Shown here: piece after piece, positions 19,449 through 25,462 of the stretch
How positions within the stretch are numbered: position 1 is the stretch's first letter
Layout: each line of letters starts with the position of its first letter
Assembly (NCBI RefSeq): GCF_014195655.1
Contig: NZ_JACICD010000001.1
Location: 62,001-126,000 of the forward strand
Origin: Ancylobacter tetraedralis
GTDB taxonomy: Bacteria > Pseudomonadota > Alphaproteobacteria > Rhizobiales > Xanthobacteraceae
Length of the DNA stretch: 64,000 bases
Direction of reading: 5' to 3'
Notes under the pieces: generated by a model
The model's input: only the letters and a program-made list of their open reading frames with translations
The model's database searches: none
Told to the model about the DNA's origin: nothing
Program-made: the position numbers and the translations under genes

Positions 19449-19958
19449 TCACGTCTCCGCGAGGGCGCGCACCTGCGCCAGCGTCATCAGCACGGCGGCG
19501 CGGCCATCGAAATAGACGAAGCGCAGCTGCCGCCGGCGCGAGGCCATGGCGCCCGGCAGCGGATCGTAGCGGAAGCTGCCGCCGCCAAGATGGGGCATGA
19601 CCGAGCCGACATCGGTCGCCTCGCTTGTCTCCACCCGCAGGAGGCTGACGCGCACGCCCTCCGTCGTCACGGCATCGAACGGCACGCGGGCGAGGCGCAG
19701 GAAGCTGGTCGGATCGCTGGCGGTATGGAAGCTCTCGACAAAGGCGGCCTCGACCAGGTCGAGATCGGGCTCGCCCACGGGATGCTCGTGCGCCTCGGCC
19801 GGCTCGGGCCGATGCGGGGTCTGCCACTGCGCGCTCTTGCGCGGGCCATGGCCGTGATTGTGGCCCGGATGATCGTGCGCGTGGTCATGGTGATGATGGC
19901 CATGCGCATGGGAATGGCCGCCCGACCCATGGTCGTGGTGGTCGTGGTCGCGGTGCAT
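19449..19958 (-). CDS. Histidine-rich protein, candidate metal (nickel) handling protein
   Basis: This 169-residue protein has about 20 histidines among its first 38 residues, in HD/HG/HHHHD runs, followed by Pro-rich linker and a C-terminal half of about 110 residues. That half is predicted alpha/beta (ESFHTASDPTSFLRLA, LRFVYFDGRAAVLMTL) and I do not recognise it. There is no signal peptide, so it is cytoplasmic. Such His tracts bind nickel, cobalt or zinc, as in HypB, SlyD and UreE. It follows, on the same strand, the putative nickel-dependent guanidine hydrolase, with 203 bases including a hairpin repeat between. A metallochaperone or store for that enzyme is an attractive inference, not shown. 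Confidence 0.75.
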   Translation of the reverse strand: MHRDHDHHDHGSGGHSHAHGHHHHDHAHDHPGHNHGHGPRKSAQWQTPHRPEPAEAHEHPVGEPDLDLVEAAFVESFHTASDPTSFLRLARVPFDAVTTEGVRVSLLRVETSEATDVGSVMPHLGGGSFRYDPLPGAMASRRRQLRFVYFDGRAAVLMTLAQVRALAET

Positions 19959-19976
19959 CGATAACTCCCTGTCTTT

Positions 19977-20150
19977 TCCTCTCCCCACTGGGGAGAGGTG
20001 GCCCGCGAAGCGGGTCGGTGAGGGGCCCTGCGATTGCGGAGCGTTGAAGGCCTCACCCGGACCCTCTCCGTCCAAGTCGGATGTTTCCGACGTTGACCAC
20101 GCCCGGGGGCCGAACGCGGCAACAGCCGGGTTCGGCGGGGAGAGGGGGCT
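19977..20150. repeat. Intergenic hairpin repeat, copy 1
   Basis: This is a mosaic of short palindromes. It comprises CTCTCCCC-ACT-GGGGAGAG at about 19979; the shared core GCCCGCGAAGCGGGTCGGTGAGGG; a TCGGA-TGTT-TCCGA hairpin near 20075; and an 11-bp hairpin 20110-20120/20125-20135 (one mismatch) that recurs at 29379-29404. It lies between the His-rich gene and the ureohydrolase. It belongs to a dispersed family with copies at 23.9, 25.4 and 29.4 kb. Confidence 0.7.
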
Positions 20151-20161
20151 TCGTCGTGCCT

Positions 20162-21367
20162 TCAGAAACTCACCGGCTTGTCGATCATGTGCTTGTGGCT
20201 GCCCAGCTTGCCATGCGCCACCATGGAGCCAAGCGCCTCCACCACCACGCGGGTGCCGAACAGGGCGGTGATGTCGGACGTGTCATAGGGCGGGGACACT
20301 TCCACCACTTCCAGGCCGCACAGCCCTTCGGCGGCGACGAGACCGAGGATCTTGAGCGCCTCGCGCGGCAGGAAGCCGCCCGGCTCGGGCCAGCCGGTAC
20401 CCGGCACGAAGCCGCAGTCGATCGAATCGACGTCGAACGAGATATAGACCGCGTCGGCATCCTTCCACGCCAGTTCCAGCGCGATCTCGGCGGTCTTCTC
20501 CAGCCCGATCTTCTCGATATCGTCGATGGTCAGCACATTGGTGCCGCGCTTGCGCGCTTCCTGCACGCCATAGCGCGGAACCTGCCAGCCGCCGATGCCG
20601 AGCTGCACGAGGTTCTTCGGCGAGACATTCGGCAGGTTGGTCGCCCAGTACCAGGGCGTGGTGTGCATGCGCTCGTCGAGATCCTTTTCCTGGATGTCGA
20701 TATGGCGGTCGAAATGAATGATGCCGATGCGCTTGGAGGTGCATTCGGCGATGCCGCGCACGCAGGGAAAGCCGATCGAATGATCGCCGCCCAGCATCAC
20801 GGGGAGCGCGCCGGAGGAGAAGACGTGGCTGACGCCCTTGGAGATCTGGTCGAAGCTCTTCTCGAGGTTTGCGGGAATGGTGAACACGTCGCCGGCGTCG
20901 CACAGCGTCATCTGCTCGCGCAGGTCGATGCCAAGCTCGTAATTATAGGGCGTGTAGAGCGCGGAGATGCGCCGGATGCCCTGCGGCCCGAAGCGGGTGC
21001 CGGGGCGATAGGTGGTGCCGCTGTCGAACGGGATGCCCATGACGGCGGCGTCATATTTGCCGACATCGCGCACGTTCTCGACATAGGGCGCCTTGAGGAA
21101 GGTGTTGATGCCGGCGAAATGCGGCAGCTCGCCGCGCGCGAAGGTGGGGATCGACTTGTCGTTGATCGAATCGGCGCCGGGCAGGCCCATGTCGAGCGCC
21201 CATTGCTGCTCCTTGCGCCAGCCGTGTTCGGAAAGGCCTTCCTCGGCTTCCAGGGCTTTCCAGCCCTGCATGTCCTTGACGTTGAAATTCGGGTGGTGGC
21301 GGCGCCGGCGCTGGCGATCCGGCGCGGGGCCGGCGACACGGGTGGAGCGGATCGGGGTCGGACGCAT
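20162..21367 (-). CDS. Ureohydrolase with guanidine-hydrolase hallmarks (GdmH-like, agmatinase superfamily)
   Basis: This 401-residue enzyme of the arginase/agmatinase fold is about 80 residues longer than agmatinase, mainly at the N-terminus, as in cyanobacterial guanidine hydrolase. The binuclear metal ligands are visible as H196 (GGDH), D220, H222, D224 and D312/D314 (SFDVDSID). HFDRHIDIQ replaces the agmatinase HFDAHTD pattern and is followed by DLDERMHTTPW, a block I associate with nickel-dependent guanidine hydrolases. The reaction would be guanidine plus water to urea and ammonia. A guanidine-I riboswitch in its leader makes guanidine by far the best substrate guess over agmatine or guanidinobutyrate. 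A His-rich protein follows. Confidence 0.85.
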   Translation of the reverse strand: MRPTPIRSTRVAGPAPDRQRRRRHHPNFNVKDMQGWKALEAEEGLSEHGWRKEQQWALDMGLPGADSINDKSIPTFARGELPHFAGINTFLKAPYVENVRDVGKYDAAVMGIPFDSGTTYRPGTRFGPQGIRRISALYTPYNYELGIDLREQMTLCDAGDVFTIPANLEKSFDQISKGVSHVFSSGALPVMLGGDHSIGFPCVRGIAECTSKRIGIIHFDRHIDIQEKDLDERMHTTPWYWATNLPNVSPKNLVQLGIGGWQVPRYGVQEARKRGTNVLTIDDIEKIGLEKTAEIALELAWKDADAVYISFDVDSIDCGFVPGTGWPEPGGFLPREALKILGLVAAEGLCGLEVVEVSPPYDTSDITALFGTRVVVEALGSMVAHGKLGSHKHMIDKPVSF

Positions 21368-21459
21368 CAGGTCACTCTCCTCGCTGGTCACAATCTGCGA
21401 CGGACGTTCGGGGGAGGACCCTGCGCGACAAAACGGGGCCTCTTCCGCGAACGCGTCGC

Positions 21460-21575
21460 GCCAGCCTCCCGGGCTTTTATCCCGCCGTGCACCCGGCGAA
21501 TGTCTCGCCACCGGGCTGTCCCTCTCGGTCCAGGCACGCCGAACACGGCGTCGGAACCCTAGGGACAGCGGCAGG
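21460..21575 (-). ncRNA. Guanidine-I (ykkC) riboswitch
   Basis: On the minus strand the leader contains, in order, the class hallmarks CUAGGGUUCCG (21562-21552), a short hairpin, CUGGACCGAGAGGGAC, a variable stem, ACGGCGGGAUAAAAGCCCGGGAGG (two overlapping conserved parts ending near 21464). These match the guanidine-I aptamer consensus block for block. CUGUCCC at its 5' side can pair with the later GGGACAG. It lies 95 bases before the ureohydrolase ATG. A downstream GCGCGAC/GTCGCGC pairing could form the expression platform, but the switching mechanism is not clear by eye. Confidence 0.93.
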
Positions 21576-21660: not shown

Positions 21661-22326
21661 TTACTTGGTGCCGAAGATGCGGTCGCCGGCATCGCCGATG
21701 CCGGGAACGATATAGCCATGGTCGTTGAGATGGCTGTCCACGGCCGCCGTGTAGACGGTGACGTCGGGATGGGCATCATGCAGCGTCTTGAGGCCCTCCG
21801 GCGCGGCGATCAGGCAGACGAACTTGATCGACTGGCAGCCCGCCGCCTTCACTTCCGACACCGCGGCGGCCGCCGAATTGCCGGTCGCCAGCATCGGGTC
21901 GAGCACGATGGCGGTGCGCTCGGAAATGTCGCGCGGCAGCTTGAGATAATATTCCACCGCCTGCAGCGAGACCGGATCGCGATACAGCCCGACATGGCCG
22001 ACGCGCGCCGCCGGCAGGATCTCCAGCATGCCCTCCAGAATGCCGCCGCCCGCCCGCAGCACGGAAACCAGGCACAGCTTCTTGCCCGCCAGCACCGGTG
22101 CCTGCATCGTCGTGAGCGGGGTTTCGATTTCGATCAGCTCGGTCGGCATGTCGCGCGTCACCTCATAGGCGAGCAGCATGCTGATCTCCCGCAGCAGCAG
22201 CCGGAACTCGTTGGCGGGCGTGCGCGAGCGGCGCATCAGCGTGAGCTTGTGCTGGATCAGCGGGTGCCCCACCACGACGGTGGTGGGTGGCAGCTCGGCG
22301 GGCGTATCGGTGAGGGGCGCGTTCAT
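21661..22326 (-). CDS. upp: Uracil phosphoribosyltransferase
   Basis: This 221-residue enzyme converts uracil and PRPP to UMP. The PRPP loop appears as [15 protein letters not shown] and the uracil-binding end as [21 protein letters not shown] 22326 is chosen for homology of the start region ([16 protein letters not shown]). It is divergent from a URC1-like gene. In the yeast URC pathway a uracil phosphoribosyltransferase (Urc6) is one of the uracil-catabolic genes, so here upp may serve degradation as well as salvage. Confidence 0.93.
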
Positions 22327-22593
22327 GAGGGGCGAACTCTGTTGACCGTGGGGCTCGGAAGACGGCGCGCGGCGCGGGAAGAGGCGGGCGTCGCGGCCGG
22401 GCGTGCCGGTGCTCGTGTGCCGCCAGCTTCCCACAACCGCGCGGAAGGCGGGAGGGGCAATACAAGAATCGGACCGTTCCGTCCGAATTTTCGCGGCCCC
22501 TGCGCGATCCCTCTTGCGGATCATGCAAAATGGCGTTCACATTGCGTGCTTCCGATGAACCGGCCCGCCGGCCGGACGAGAAGCGAGCCAGTC

Positions 22594-23862
22594 ATGTCCG
22601 TCAATGCCAGTGCAGGCGGTCGTTCCCGCAATCACATCGTGCTCACCTCCCACGGCGCGCCGACCGGCGTCGCCGCCGATGGCCCCACGCTGAACTGGGG
22701 CGCGCCCAGCGCCGCCGCGCGCGGACCGGTCGTTGCCACGCTCACCGACCCCAAGCGCCGCAACGCCATCGGTTCCCATGCCGGCAGCTATGCGATCTAT
22801 CGCGCGCTCGCCATCGCCGCCGGCGCCCTGCCGGCCGATTTCAAGGCCGACCTCACCAATACCGCCCCGTCCGACACGATCGGCCCGCATCCGCAATGGG
22901 GCGACGCGGGCAAGATCGTCTCGCTCGACCCTTACGGCCACATGATCGGCGAAGCCTTCCCCGAGGCCATCGCCGGCGGTCTCGACGTGCGGCCCTCCAT
23001 CGCCATTACCCGCGCGCGCATCGACATGCCGGAGATCCGCGATGCGCTGAGGGCCGGGCGGCTTTCCGTCGACGGCGACATCATCGGGCCGAAGGGCGAT
23101 GTGCGCGTCACCAAGGCGGCGATCGAGCCGGTCTGGTACCTGCCCGGCATCGCCGAGCGCTTCGGCGTCACCGAGGGCGCGCTGCGCCGCGCGCTGTTCG
23201 AGCATACGGGGGGTATGTTCCCCGAACTGGTGACGCGCGGCGACCTCAAGGTGTTCCTGCCCCCGATCGGCGGCATGACGCTCTACATGTTCGGCGAGCC
23301 CTCGCGGATCGGCGACGGTGTCACTCCGCTTGCCTGCCGCGTGCATGACGAGTGTAACGGCTCGGACGTGTTCTCCTCCGATATCTGCACCTGCCGGCCC
23401 TATCTCGCCCATGGCATCGAGCTGTGCGTGGAGATGGCGCAGAAGGGCGGCGTCGGCCTCGTGGTCTATAACCGCAAGGAAGGCCGGGCGCTGGGCGAGG
23501 TGACCAAGTTCCTCGTCTATAACGCCCGCAAGCGGCAGGAGGGCGGCGACCTGCCGGAAACCTATTTCAAGCGCACCGAATGCGTGGCCGGGGTGCAGGA
23601 CATGCGCTTCCAGGAACTGATGCCTGACGTGTTCCACTGGCTGGGCATCCGCCAGATCGACCGCTTCGCCTCGATGAGCGACATGAAGTTCAACGCGCTC
23701 GACCGGGCGGGGATACGGATCATCGAGCGGGTGCCGATTCCCGAGGATCTCATCCCGCAGGATGCCCGTGTCGAGATGGAGGCGAAGGTCTCGGCCGGCT
23801 ATTACAATGTCGGGTTCCAGAGCCAGTATGACGTCACGCAGGGGCGCGGGCTGGAGGAATAG
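22594..23862 (+). CDS. GTP cyclohydrolase II-like protein, URC1 type (uracil catabolism)
   Basis: This 422-residue protein has an N-terminal half of about 210 residues not found in RibA and a C-terminal GTP cyclohydrolase II-like domain. Zinc ligands C254, C265 and C267 follow the RibA spacing (CNGSDVFSSDICTC). KEGRALGE replaces the RibA QEGRGIGL block, so substrate handling differs. Such long forms correspond to Urc1 of the yeast uracil-degradation pathway, proposed to act on a uridine nucleotide. The divergent upp and the following URC4-like gene support that over riboflavin synthesis. ATG 22594 has a moderate ribosome site (AGCGAGCC). Confidence 0.85.
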   Translation: MSVNASAGGRSRNHIVLTSHGAPTGVAADGPTLNWGAPSAAARGPVVATLTDPKRRNAIGSHAGSYAIYRALAIAAGALPADFKADLTNTAPSDTIGPHPQWGDAGKIVSLDPYGHMIGEAFPEAIAGGLDVRPSIAITRARIDMPEIRDALRAGRLSVDGDIIGPKGDVRVTKAAIEPVWYLPGIAERFGVTEGALRRALFEHTGGMFPELVTRGDLKVFLPPIGGMTLYMFGEPSRIGDGVTPLACRVHDECNGSDVFSSDICTCRPYLAHGIELCVEMAQKGGVGLVVYNRKEGRALGEVTKFLVYNARKRQEGGDLPETYFKRTECVAGVQDMRFQELMPDVFHWLGIRQIDRFASMSDMKFNALDRAGIRIIERVPIPEDLIPQDARVEMEAKVSAGYYNVGFQSQYDVTQGRGLEE

Positions 23863-23877
23863 GCGACGCGCCCGTCT

Positions 23878-23985
23878 TTCCTCCTCCCGTCGAGGAGAGG
23901 AAGCCCGCGCAGCGGGTCGGTGAGGGACGGGCGATGAAACGCCCGTTCGCCCCTCACCCCACCGCTCTCCCGCCGGGAGAGGGAG
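23878..23985. repeat. Intergenic hairpin repeat, copy 2
   Basis: CTCCTCCCGTCGAGGAGAG, the core GCCCGCGCAGCGGGTCGGTGAGGG and a second CTCTCCCGCCGGGAGAG palindrome lie between the URC1-like and URC4-like genes. The core differs from copy 1 by one base in its loop. The element separates two genes that should be co-expressed and may act as an mRNA structure. Confidence 0.7.
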
Positions 23986-24059
23986 CCTGTGGCTCTCCGG
24001 TCCTTCCGGCGCGGACGATCCGATCCGCACGACGACATCTGAACGACGAAAGCCGATGC

Positions 24060-25319
24060 ATGACCTCGCCCGACATGACCTCGCCCCACCTTGTCCCGCC
24101 TGAACTTGCCGCGCTGCGCTCGCCGGCCGCCGTCCGTGCCCGTTGCCACCTCGTGCTCGATCATGTGCTGGCCGGCCGCTCACCGCACTTCACCGTCGAG
24201 GAGGCGGCGCTCGGTACCGTGGCGGACTATGTCGCCGCGGTGACGCGGCAGGATTATCCCACGCTGGACATTCCCTATCACAGCCGCTGGCGGCATTTCG
24301 ATGCCGGCGGGCTGGACCGCTGGGGCGCTCTGGCTGCGGGGCTGGCGAGCACCGACCCAACGGAGCGCGCCCGCATCAGGATCGACCTCGCGGTGGTGAG
24401 CGTGCTGCTGGACGCCGGGGCGGGCGATGCCTGGCGCTATCACGAGGAGGCGAGCGGGCTCACCATCGGCCGCTCGGAAGGGCTGGCGGTGGCGAGCTTC
24501 AACATGTTCGCGGCCGGTGCCTTCTCCTCCGACCCGACCAATCCGTTGCGGGCCGACGCCGGCGCGTTGATCCGGCTGGATGCGGCCACGCTCGCCGATC
24601 ATTTCCAGGTGAGCGAGGCCAACCCGCTGGTCGGGCTGGAGGGCCGCGTGTTGCTGCTCAACCGGCTCGGCGCGGCGCTGGCGGCGCGAGCGGACCTGTT
24701 CGGCGACGGCGTGTTCCGCCCGGGTCATCTCTATGACGCGCTGGCGCCACAGGCGCGGCTCGGCCGGCTGCCGGCGGCGCGTATCCTTGAGGCGCTGCTG
24801 GACGGGCTGTCGGTGATCTGGCCGTCCGGGGTGAGCGTCGAGGGCGTGGCGCTGGGCGATGTCGGCCGTCACCCGGCGGTGGCGGTGCCGGACCGCTCGA
24901 ACGGCATCGTGCCGTTTCACAAGCTCTCGCAGTGGCTGACCTATTCGCTTCTGGAGCCGTTCGAGACAGCCGGCCTCGCCATCACCGATCTCGATGCGCT
25001 GACCGCGCTGCCGGAATACCGCAATGGCGGGCTGCTGGTGGATCTCGGCCTGATCGTGCCGCGCGCGCCGATCGATCCGGCGCAGAAGCACGACGTCTCG
25101 TCGGAACTGGTGGTGGAGTGGCGGGCGCTGACCGTGGCGCTGATGGACCGGCTGGCCGACGAGGTGCGCGCGCGGCTGGGGCTCGACGCCTCGCTATTTC
25201 CCCTCGCCAAGCTGCTGCAGGGCGGCACCTGGACGGCCGGCCGGCGCATCGCCGCCGAACGTCGCCCGCCCGCCGGTCCGCCGCCCATCGCCATCGACGC
25301 GGACGGCACGGTGTTCTGA
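24060..25319 (+). CDS. URC4/Urg3-family protein (DUF1688), uracil catabolism
   Basis: This 419-residue protein belongs to the DUF1688/URC4 family, shown genetically in yeast to be needed for growth on uracil as nitrogen source; its chemistry is unsettled. Recognisable blocks are HSRWRHFDAGG (about 74), EGLAVASFNMF, VPFHKLSQWLTYSLLEP (about 281) and KLLQGGTWTAGRR near the end. ATG 24060 is chosen because MTSPDM precedes the conserved start. It follows the URC1-like gene on the same strand after a hairpin repeat. With upp this gives three URC components; others (a URC3/URC5-type hydrolase or regulator) are not visible. Confidence 0.85.
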   Translation: MTSPDMTSPHLVPPELAALRSPAAVRARCHLVLDHVLAGRSPHFTVEEAALGTVADYVAAVTRQDYPTLDIPYHSRWRHFDAGGLDRWGALAAGLASTDPTERARIRIDLAVVSVLLDAGAGDAWRYHEEASGLTIGRSEGLAVASFNMFAAGAFSSDPTNPLRADAGALIRLDAATLADHFQVSEANPLVGLEGRVLLLNRLGAALAARADLFGDGVFRPGHLYDALAPQARLGRLPAARILEALLDGLSVIWPSGVSVEGVALGDVGRHPAVAVPDRSNGIVPFHKLSQWLTYSLLEPFETAGLAITDLDALTALPEYRNGGLLVDLGLIVPRAPIDPAQKHDVSSELVVEWRALTVALMDRLADEVRARLGLDASLFPLAKLLQGGTWTAGRRIAAERRPPAGPPPIAIDADGTVF

Positions 25320-25359: not shown

Positions 25360-25462
25360 TCCCTCTCCCCGACGGGGAGAGGGTTGGGGTGAGGGGGCCG
25401 GGCTGTGGCAACTCCTCACCGACCCGCTTCGCGGGCCACCTCTCCCGACGGGGTGAGGGAGG
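25360..25462. repeat. Intergenic hairpin repeat, copy 3
   Basis: CTCCCTCTCCCCGACGGGGAGAGGG is followed by CTCACCGACCCGCTTCGCGGGCCACCTCTCCCGACGGGGTGAGGG, the inverted form of the core seen in copies 1 and 2. It lies between the converging URC4-like and binding-protein genes, where it can form a strong bidirectional stem and probably works as a terminator. Confidence 0.7.

Follow-up and report, generated by a model that had tools for sequence, protein, structure and literature searches.

Organization of the locus

The window analysed here is a stretch of 64,000 nucleotides from the genome of Ancylobacter tetraedralis. On its minus strand a guanidine-I riboswitch is followed by a gene predicted to encode a guanidine hydrolase of the GdmH type, and then by the gene of a small His-rich protein, which will be called the partner (Table 1). 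The earlier note on this DNA had recognized a guanidine-I aptamer in the leader and had proposed a search with the covariance model. The Rfam model RF00442 matches the leader over its full length, and the score of 93.8 bits exceeds the gathering score of 63. In a single-sequence fold the structure of the leader is weak (z -1.41). The enzyme is read from the ATG at 21367, and a longer reading frame with an upstream GTG is also listed. The partner frame extends from the ATG at 19958 to the stop codon at 19449-19451 and contains no Cys.

Table 1. Positions of the features of the gdmH-partner module in the window
Feature	Position	Strand	Evidence or content
Guanidine-I riboswitch aptamer	21464..21573	-	Rfam RF00442, 93.8 bits, E 1.1e-15
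Leader, aptamer to gdmH start	21368..21463	-	Purine-rich likely ribosome-binding site GAGGAGAG
Predicted gdmH-type guanidine hydrolase gene	20162..21367	-	401 aa; Pfam and PDB matches, alignment
gdmH stop to partner start, 203-base gap	19959..20161	-	Two copies of CCTCTCCCC-type repeat
GdmH partner gene	19449..19958	-	169 aa; no named family
Partner His-rich N-terminal tail	19779..19958	-	Residues 1-60, 21 His; starts Met-His
Partner conserved folded domain	19452..19769	-	Residues 64-169, mean pLDDT 90.2 (predicted)

A repeat resembling GGCCACCTCTCCCC is found at positions 19990-20150 and 25386-25447. With up to two mismatches it has six matches in the window, compared with 1.04 expected, and two of them fall within the gap that separates gdmH from the partner gene. 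The neighbours of the module at 21664-25316 encode uracil phosphoribosyltransferase, a GTP cyclohydrolase II-like protein and a DUF1688 protein, a set which we take to be the URC cluster of uracil breakdown. The URC cluster likewise yields urea.

The GdmH-type enzyme

The enzyme matches the Pfam Arginase family (E 2.5e-76), with the arginase domain beginning at residue 106, and scores under both NCBIfam agmatinase cut-offs (210.8 of 302 bits and 159.5 of 174.3 bits). The segments HFDRHIDIQ and DERMHTTPW, which the earlier note had set apart from the agmatinase pattern, are present as quoted and represent the GdmH form, their counterparts in PDB entry 7esr being HFDRHVDTQ and DERMHTCPW. The N-terminal extension noticed at the same time is real as well: residues 37-105, ahead of the arginase domain, align with 7esr. 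Such an extension is a mark of GdmH. The motifs GGDHS, DRHID and SFDVDSID are presumably the ligand motifs. The best PDB matches are 7esr/7oi1 (E 5.6e-162) and 9fek (E 1.4e-156), described as the Synechocystis guanidine hydrolase and the Nitrospira inopinata guanidinase, respectively (PMC11410670); guanidinobutyrase 3nio is a far weaker match (E 9.8e-51).

Guanidine specificity has been attributed to Thr97 and Trp305 in the Synechocystis numbering (PMC11410670). The window enzyme carries both residues, as well as His222 and Glu344 of the Nitrospira numbering. With a two-residue offset allowed between the PDB chains and the numbering of the papers, all four residues are found in 46 of 47 aligned GdmH-like rows, two reference proteins included. 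The sole exception is the protein of genome G140 (L097), which has Ser in place of Trp.

In the phylogenetic tree, the 47 GdmH-like rows, the window enzyme among them, are separated from the five paralogous ureohydrolases of the window genome with a support of 100/100, so that the grouping with GdmH, on which the earlier note had made its assignment depend, is obtained. All but one of the 43 alphaproteobacterial rows form a single clade (98/99), outside which lie Synechocystis, Nitrospira, two Rubrobacter proteins and G140. The tree has long branches that leave its deeper order unsure, and its rows include neither an agmatinase of known activity nor G072. The NCBIfam cut-offs, the PDB ranking and the tree together rule out an agmatinase or a guanidinobutyrase, and by these sequence comparisons the window enzyme is a predicted GdmH-type guanidine hydrolase. 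The window genome has two urease alpha matches, so the route from guanidine through urea to ammonia is complete on paper.

Contig 7 of the same genome contains two arginase-family genes in tandem (L001 506-2415). The nearest PDB match of the upstream one is 3-guanidinopropionase (E 3.9e-121), and the tandem is reminiscent of ureohydrolases built from two subunits, metformin hydrolase for example.

The partner protein

The partner consists of a variable His-rich tail and a confidently predicted domain of about 105 residues. The earlier note was right that the first 38 residues are rich in His, but the number is 18 and not about 20; the first 60 residues contain 21. The domain is predicted (pTM 0.77) to comprise two helices, six strands, two of which are long, and a short C-terminal helix. 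The tail is modelled with low confidence and without secondary structure. The models were computed from 58 and 80 rows, made up of the window protein and its relatives from a motif search, with a distant subclade lying outside them. The conserved portion of the protein is the folded C-terminal domain and not the His run: 21 positions of the domain are invariant across the 80 rows, none of the conserved positions in the aligned rows being His. The tail ranges from 27 His in the first 60 residues to almost none. Some distant members have almost no His run, and the tail is short or lost in those of genomes G421, G443 and G620.

The window partner matches no Pfam or NCBIfam family, and 30 members of its family give weak, chance-level matches to these collections at most. 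A few members match Co/Ni efflux proteins of NCBIfam at E 0.11 to 0.29, probably via the His run. Among PDB sequences nothing better than E 1 was found, and neither the full model nor the trimmed domain has a Foldseek match at E<=0.001 in 350,542 PDB chains. The closest named relative, among the matches listed, belongs to Ancylobacter amanitiformis (91%). In an annotated Limimaricola record the product is labelled 'hypothetical protein'. Among the papers listed in literature searches, no title or abstract opening describes the family; the module is of a known kind, and the accessory protein appears to be new.

Several identities were considered and rejected. The partner does not match HypA: none of the 30 members gives a HypA match, and Cys is absent from the window protein and from 27 of the 30. 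Nor does it match a GTPase of the HypB/UreG kind: no P-loop GTPase family is matched, and the model consists of two helices, six strands and a short helix. UreE_N and UreE_C are not matched either, although the true UreE of locus L072 does match them. Finally, the view that the gene goes with its neighbours hemA or upp was rejected, since in many genera it accompanies gdmH.

Association of the partner with gdmH

The occurrence of the two genes was followed in three overlapping draws of genomes. In the draw from the order, with the non-His part of the partner as the query and a GdmH threshold of E<=1e-100, 31 of the 297 genomes give a partner match and 32 have GdmH; all 31 are among the 32, and the partner gene adjoins gdmH in every one of them. 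In the draw from the class, GdmH is present in 11 of 337 genomes, each time with an adjacent partner, and the partner profile matches 12. The twelfth match (G420) is a fragment, and no GdmH lies within the 16 kb of sequence read there. This partner-like fragment, at about 7103-7354 of L217, is perhaps the remnant of a lost module. The draw from the phylum has GdmH (E<=1e-90) in six of 349 genomes, all belonging to the class of the window and all with an adjacent partner. When each genome is counted once, 44 have a GdmH-like enzyme, and in 43 of them the partner lies beside gdmH. The 44th is G140 (L097 8994-10915, reverse-complement orientation), whose enzyme is 57% identical and has no partner. 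Besides the Ser in place of the specificity Trp, this protein has His-rich stretches of its own, and a HupE gene lies behind it; it is perhaps a self-supplied variant with another substrate.

A search with a partner motif alone, in genomes that overlap partly with the three draws, gave the same picture: among the best 80 of 136 relatives, gdmH is directly upstream in 79. In the remaining locus, that of Jiella endophytica (L134), gdmH is about 7 kb away on the opposite strand, and this is the sole split pair. On plasmids, all seven records with a partner also have GdmH, and four of 11 GdmH records (Rubrobacter twice, Nonomuraea and Embleya) have no partner match, including with a query from the distant subclade. 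Named bacteria with the partner include Ancylobacter, Methylopila, Mesorhizobium and Sinorhizobium fredii NGR234. The partnership of the two genes is near certain. Outside the Ancylobacter group the gap between them is at most 15 bases in 52 of 65 measured loci, which suggests that their translation may be coupled.

In genome G031 (L066/L096), GdmH matches from residue 107 onward, no riboswitch pattern is found upstream and there is no urease match; its gdmH is possibly a shortened or decaying copy.

The operon in relatives of the window

The commonest gene order is riboswitch, ABC substrate-binding protein, permease, ATPase, gdmH and partner, often followed by hupE. All three ABC genes are present in 54 of the 80 motif-search loci. 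A riboswitch-like pattern lies upstream in 69 of the 80, or in 66 of the 71 for which at least 6.5 kb of sequence is available. The pattern is approximate and matches elsewhere too, and therefore only upstream matches at the expected place were counted; the additional downstream matches in the rechecked loci were not confirmed by Rfam. In 16 of 16 loci, chosen among those positive for the pattern, Rfam finds one aptamer at the expected place. With flanks of 1.5 kb the aptamer is seen in one of 29 gdmH loci, and longer flanks place it mostly about 3 kb upstream, before the ABC genes. The window lacks the ABC importer, as do 13 of the 14 Ancylobacter loci of the motif search, and in the window and these same 13 the riboswitch pattern directly precedes gdmH.

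In G010 (L074 14145-19499, reverse-complement) the module is followed downstream by another ABC-like importer set and by a pair of neighbouring ureohydrolase genes. These genes possibly serve another guanidino compound.

The Met-His start of the partner

The tail of the window partner begins with Met-His. His is the second encoded residue in 84 of 100 distinct tails, compared with 33.5 (sd 4.6) expected from the His content of the tails themselves. The statistic is based on 102 distinct proteins, reduced to 100 by collapsing identical first 25 residues. It includes 30 of the 31 partners of the order draw (all except G067). The starts of these 30 were picked by inspection, with a possible bias towards Met-His. 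For the remaining proteins the first ATG after gdmH was taken, except that the starts of L107, L120, L142 and L159 were moved to an internal start of the MHRG type. The partners of the class and phylum draws are outside the statistic. The removal of the first Met follows a known rule, and when it is allowed for, His occupies position 2 or 3 of the mature protein in 100 of 102. The third residue of the 85 Met-His tails is Arg in 41, Asp in 31 and Glu in two, the nickel motif of HypA being MHE. The nickel site of HypA is reported to require the Met1 amine and His2 (PMC5557546).

The G421 protein, which has lost its His run, still starts Met-Pro-His-Asp, and at neither position 2 nor position 3 does the reading frame of G419 encode His. 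This frame and the short or lost tails mentioned above show that both the tail and the Met-His start have exceptions. The enrichment is a strong hint of nickel; it falls short of proof, given the kinship among the sequences and the choice of part of the starts by inspection.

Nickel proteins in genomes with the module

Two accessory nickel proteins are reported to load the GdmH of Synechocystis (PMC12186494, PMC11271267), and HypA, HypB and HupE are encoded in the metformin hydrolase operon (PMC11399263). Among the 32 GdmH genomes of the order draw, HypA is found in seven and HypB over the cut-off in six, in no case near gdmH. Of the 31 partner genomes tested, 24 contain neither HypA nor a HypB over the cut-off, that of the window among them. 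A gene for a HupE-type nickel permease, a family assignment confirmed on two examples, lies beside the pair in 36 of 80 loci, in 29 directly downstream and in seven just upstream. HupE matches occur in 24 of the 32 GdmH genomes, in G015, G080 and G115 by weak matches alone. Neither the window genome nor G077, which belongs to the same genus, has a HupE match, so that a different route of nickel entry is presumed for the window genome.

The Nitrospira guanidinase is reported to lack a nickel-loading protein (PMC11410670), and two Rubrobacter gdmH loci, the annotation of which may be incomplete, have neither HypA/HypB nor the partner beside gdmH; the two Rubrobacter plasmids also give no HypA match. 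Because of these cases a loader is perhaps dispensable for some GdmH enzymes. For metformin hydrolase, co-expressed chaperones are reported to have left the activity of cell extracts unraised, and their loss stopped growth (PMC11271267).

Possible functions of the partner

The earlier note had suggested that the His-rich protein might replace the usual nickel loaders, and this is the reading that we favour. Judged from the sequences and their arrangement, the partner is probably a dedicated metallochaperone that gives nickel to the alphaproteobacterial GdmH in a guanidine-induced module, in place of HypA/HypB. As we infer the sequence of events, guanidine would bind the riboswitch and switch on gdmH together with the downstream gene, the two being transcribed as one unit. 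GdmH would hydrolyse guanidine to urea and ammonia, and the urease encoded elsewhere in the genome would complete the breakdown of urea. The Met-His start and the His-rich tail of the partner would collect Ni(II), and its folded domain would dock on GdmH or on a folding intermediate of it, so that nickel and not manganese fills the di-metal site. The partner would thus do the job of GhaA/GhaB of Synechocystis as one protein without a GTPase of its own. The wider proposal is more tentative, with chances that we put slightly short of even: the partner would represent a new family of nickel metallochaperones that act as one protein and independently of a GTPase. Their fold would be one not recognized in the PDB, their His-rich tail would have a Met-His start like that of HypA, and they would be dedicated to loading GdmH across the Alphaproteobacteria, standing in for HypA/HypB. 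Against a metallochaperone speak the predicted fold, which resembles no known protein of this kind, the lack of conserved His in the folded domain and of a universal His tail, the missing HupE match in the window genome and G077, and the Nitrospira guanidinase, which is reported to have no loader (PMC11410670).

A serious rival, albeit a rather unlikely one, sees in the partner a subunit of GdmH with a structural or regulatory role (a stabilizer, an assembly factor or a modulator of activity), the His tail doing nothing but buffering metal. It would explain why the folded domain, with its 21 invariant positions, is the conserved part and the tail is variable, and it has a parallel in metformin hydrolase, reported to be active solely as a complex of two kinds of subunit, one of which holds the di-nickel centre (PMC11399263). 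However, the Met-His start is far above chance and HupE flanks 36 of the 80 loci, and both point to nickel.

It is improbable that UreE and UreG of the urease cluster load GdmH, with the partner serving as an adaptor between them and the enzyme. Of the 32 GdmH genomes, 29 have strong urease alpha matches (E<=1.1e-54); those without are G031, G140 and G214. The genomes without a true HypB, except G140, have matches to the HypB model below the cut-off, likely to be UreG and its relatives, and ureE-ureF-ureG adjoin the module in four of the 32 loci examined. All this agrees with an adaptor, but G031 has the partner and no urease match.

It is very improbable that the partner is an Hpn-like buffer or store, linked to GdmH by nothing more than a common operon and guarding the cell against the nickel imported for the enzyme. 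Such a protein would suit the His-rich composition and the HupE genes near the pair in 36 of 80 loci. However, the folded domain is kept where the His run is nearly gone. Among the 165 urease-positive genomes of a 249-genome draw from the order, moreover, 27 have the partner; the other 138 are free of GdmH and give no partner match, and this speaks against a general store of nickel or a general urease protein.

The family provides a concrete candidate gene for the supply of nickel to guanidine hydrolases in genomes free of HypA/HypB. It also provides a genome marker for probable guanidinases that are now annotated as 'agmatinase family protein', and perhaps a factor to be co-expressed in the production of active GdmH.

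Comparison with known systems

The module resembles the gdmH (Sll1077) operon of Synechocystis PCC 6803 in its guanidine-I riboswitch, in the Thr/Trp pair and in having accessory genes beside the enzyme. In the usual form of the alphaproteobacterial operon it also shares the ABC importer. The accessory proteins GhaA and GhaB of Synechocystis are HypA/HypB-like. The two systems differ in that Synechocystis is described as using these two proteins for nickel loading, whereas the alphaproteobacterial module has a single protein of no named family.

The comammox bacterium Nitrospira inopinata likewise has a guanidine-I riboswitch and a guanidinase with the same specificity residues. Its operon has an APC permease instead of an ABC importer and is reported to have no nickel-loading protein; how nickel is acquired over manganese without HypA/HypB is described there as unclear (PMC11410670). 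The operon for metformin/dimethylguanidine hydrolysis, reported as hypA-hypB-mefH alpha-beta-hupE, is alike in combining a nickel ureohydrolase with HupE and accessory genes. It differs in the two-subunit enzyme, in the substrate and in having HypA/HypB in the place of the partner.

Among nickel proteins, HypA is reported to bind Ni via the Met1 amine and His2, which the Met-His start of the partner resembles, and some UreE and SlyD proteins are described with His-rich tails like that of the partner. The partner is set apart from HypA, UreE and SlyD by its lack of a Pfam or NCBIfam match, of Cys for the zinc site of HypA in the window protein, and of a fold match in the PDB.
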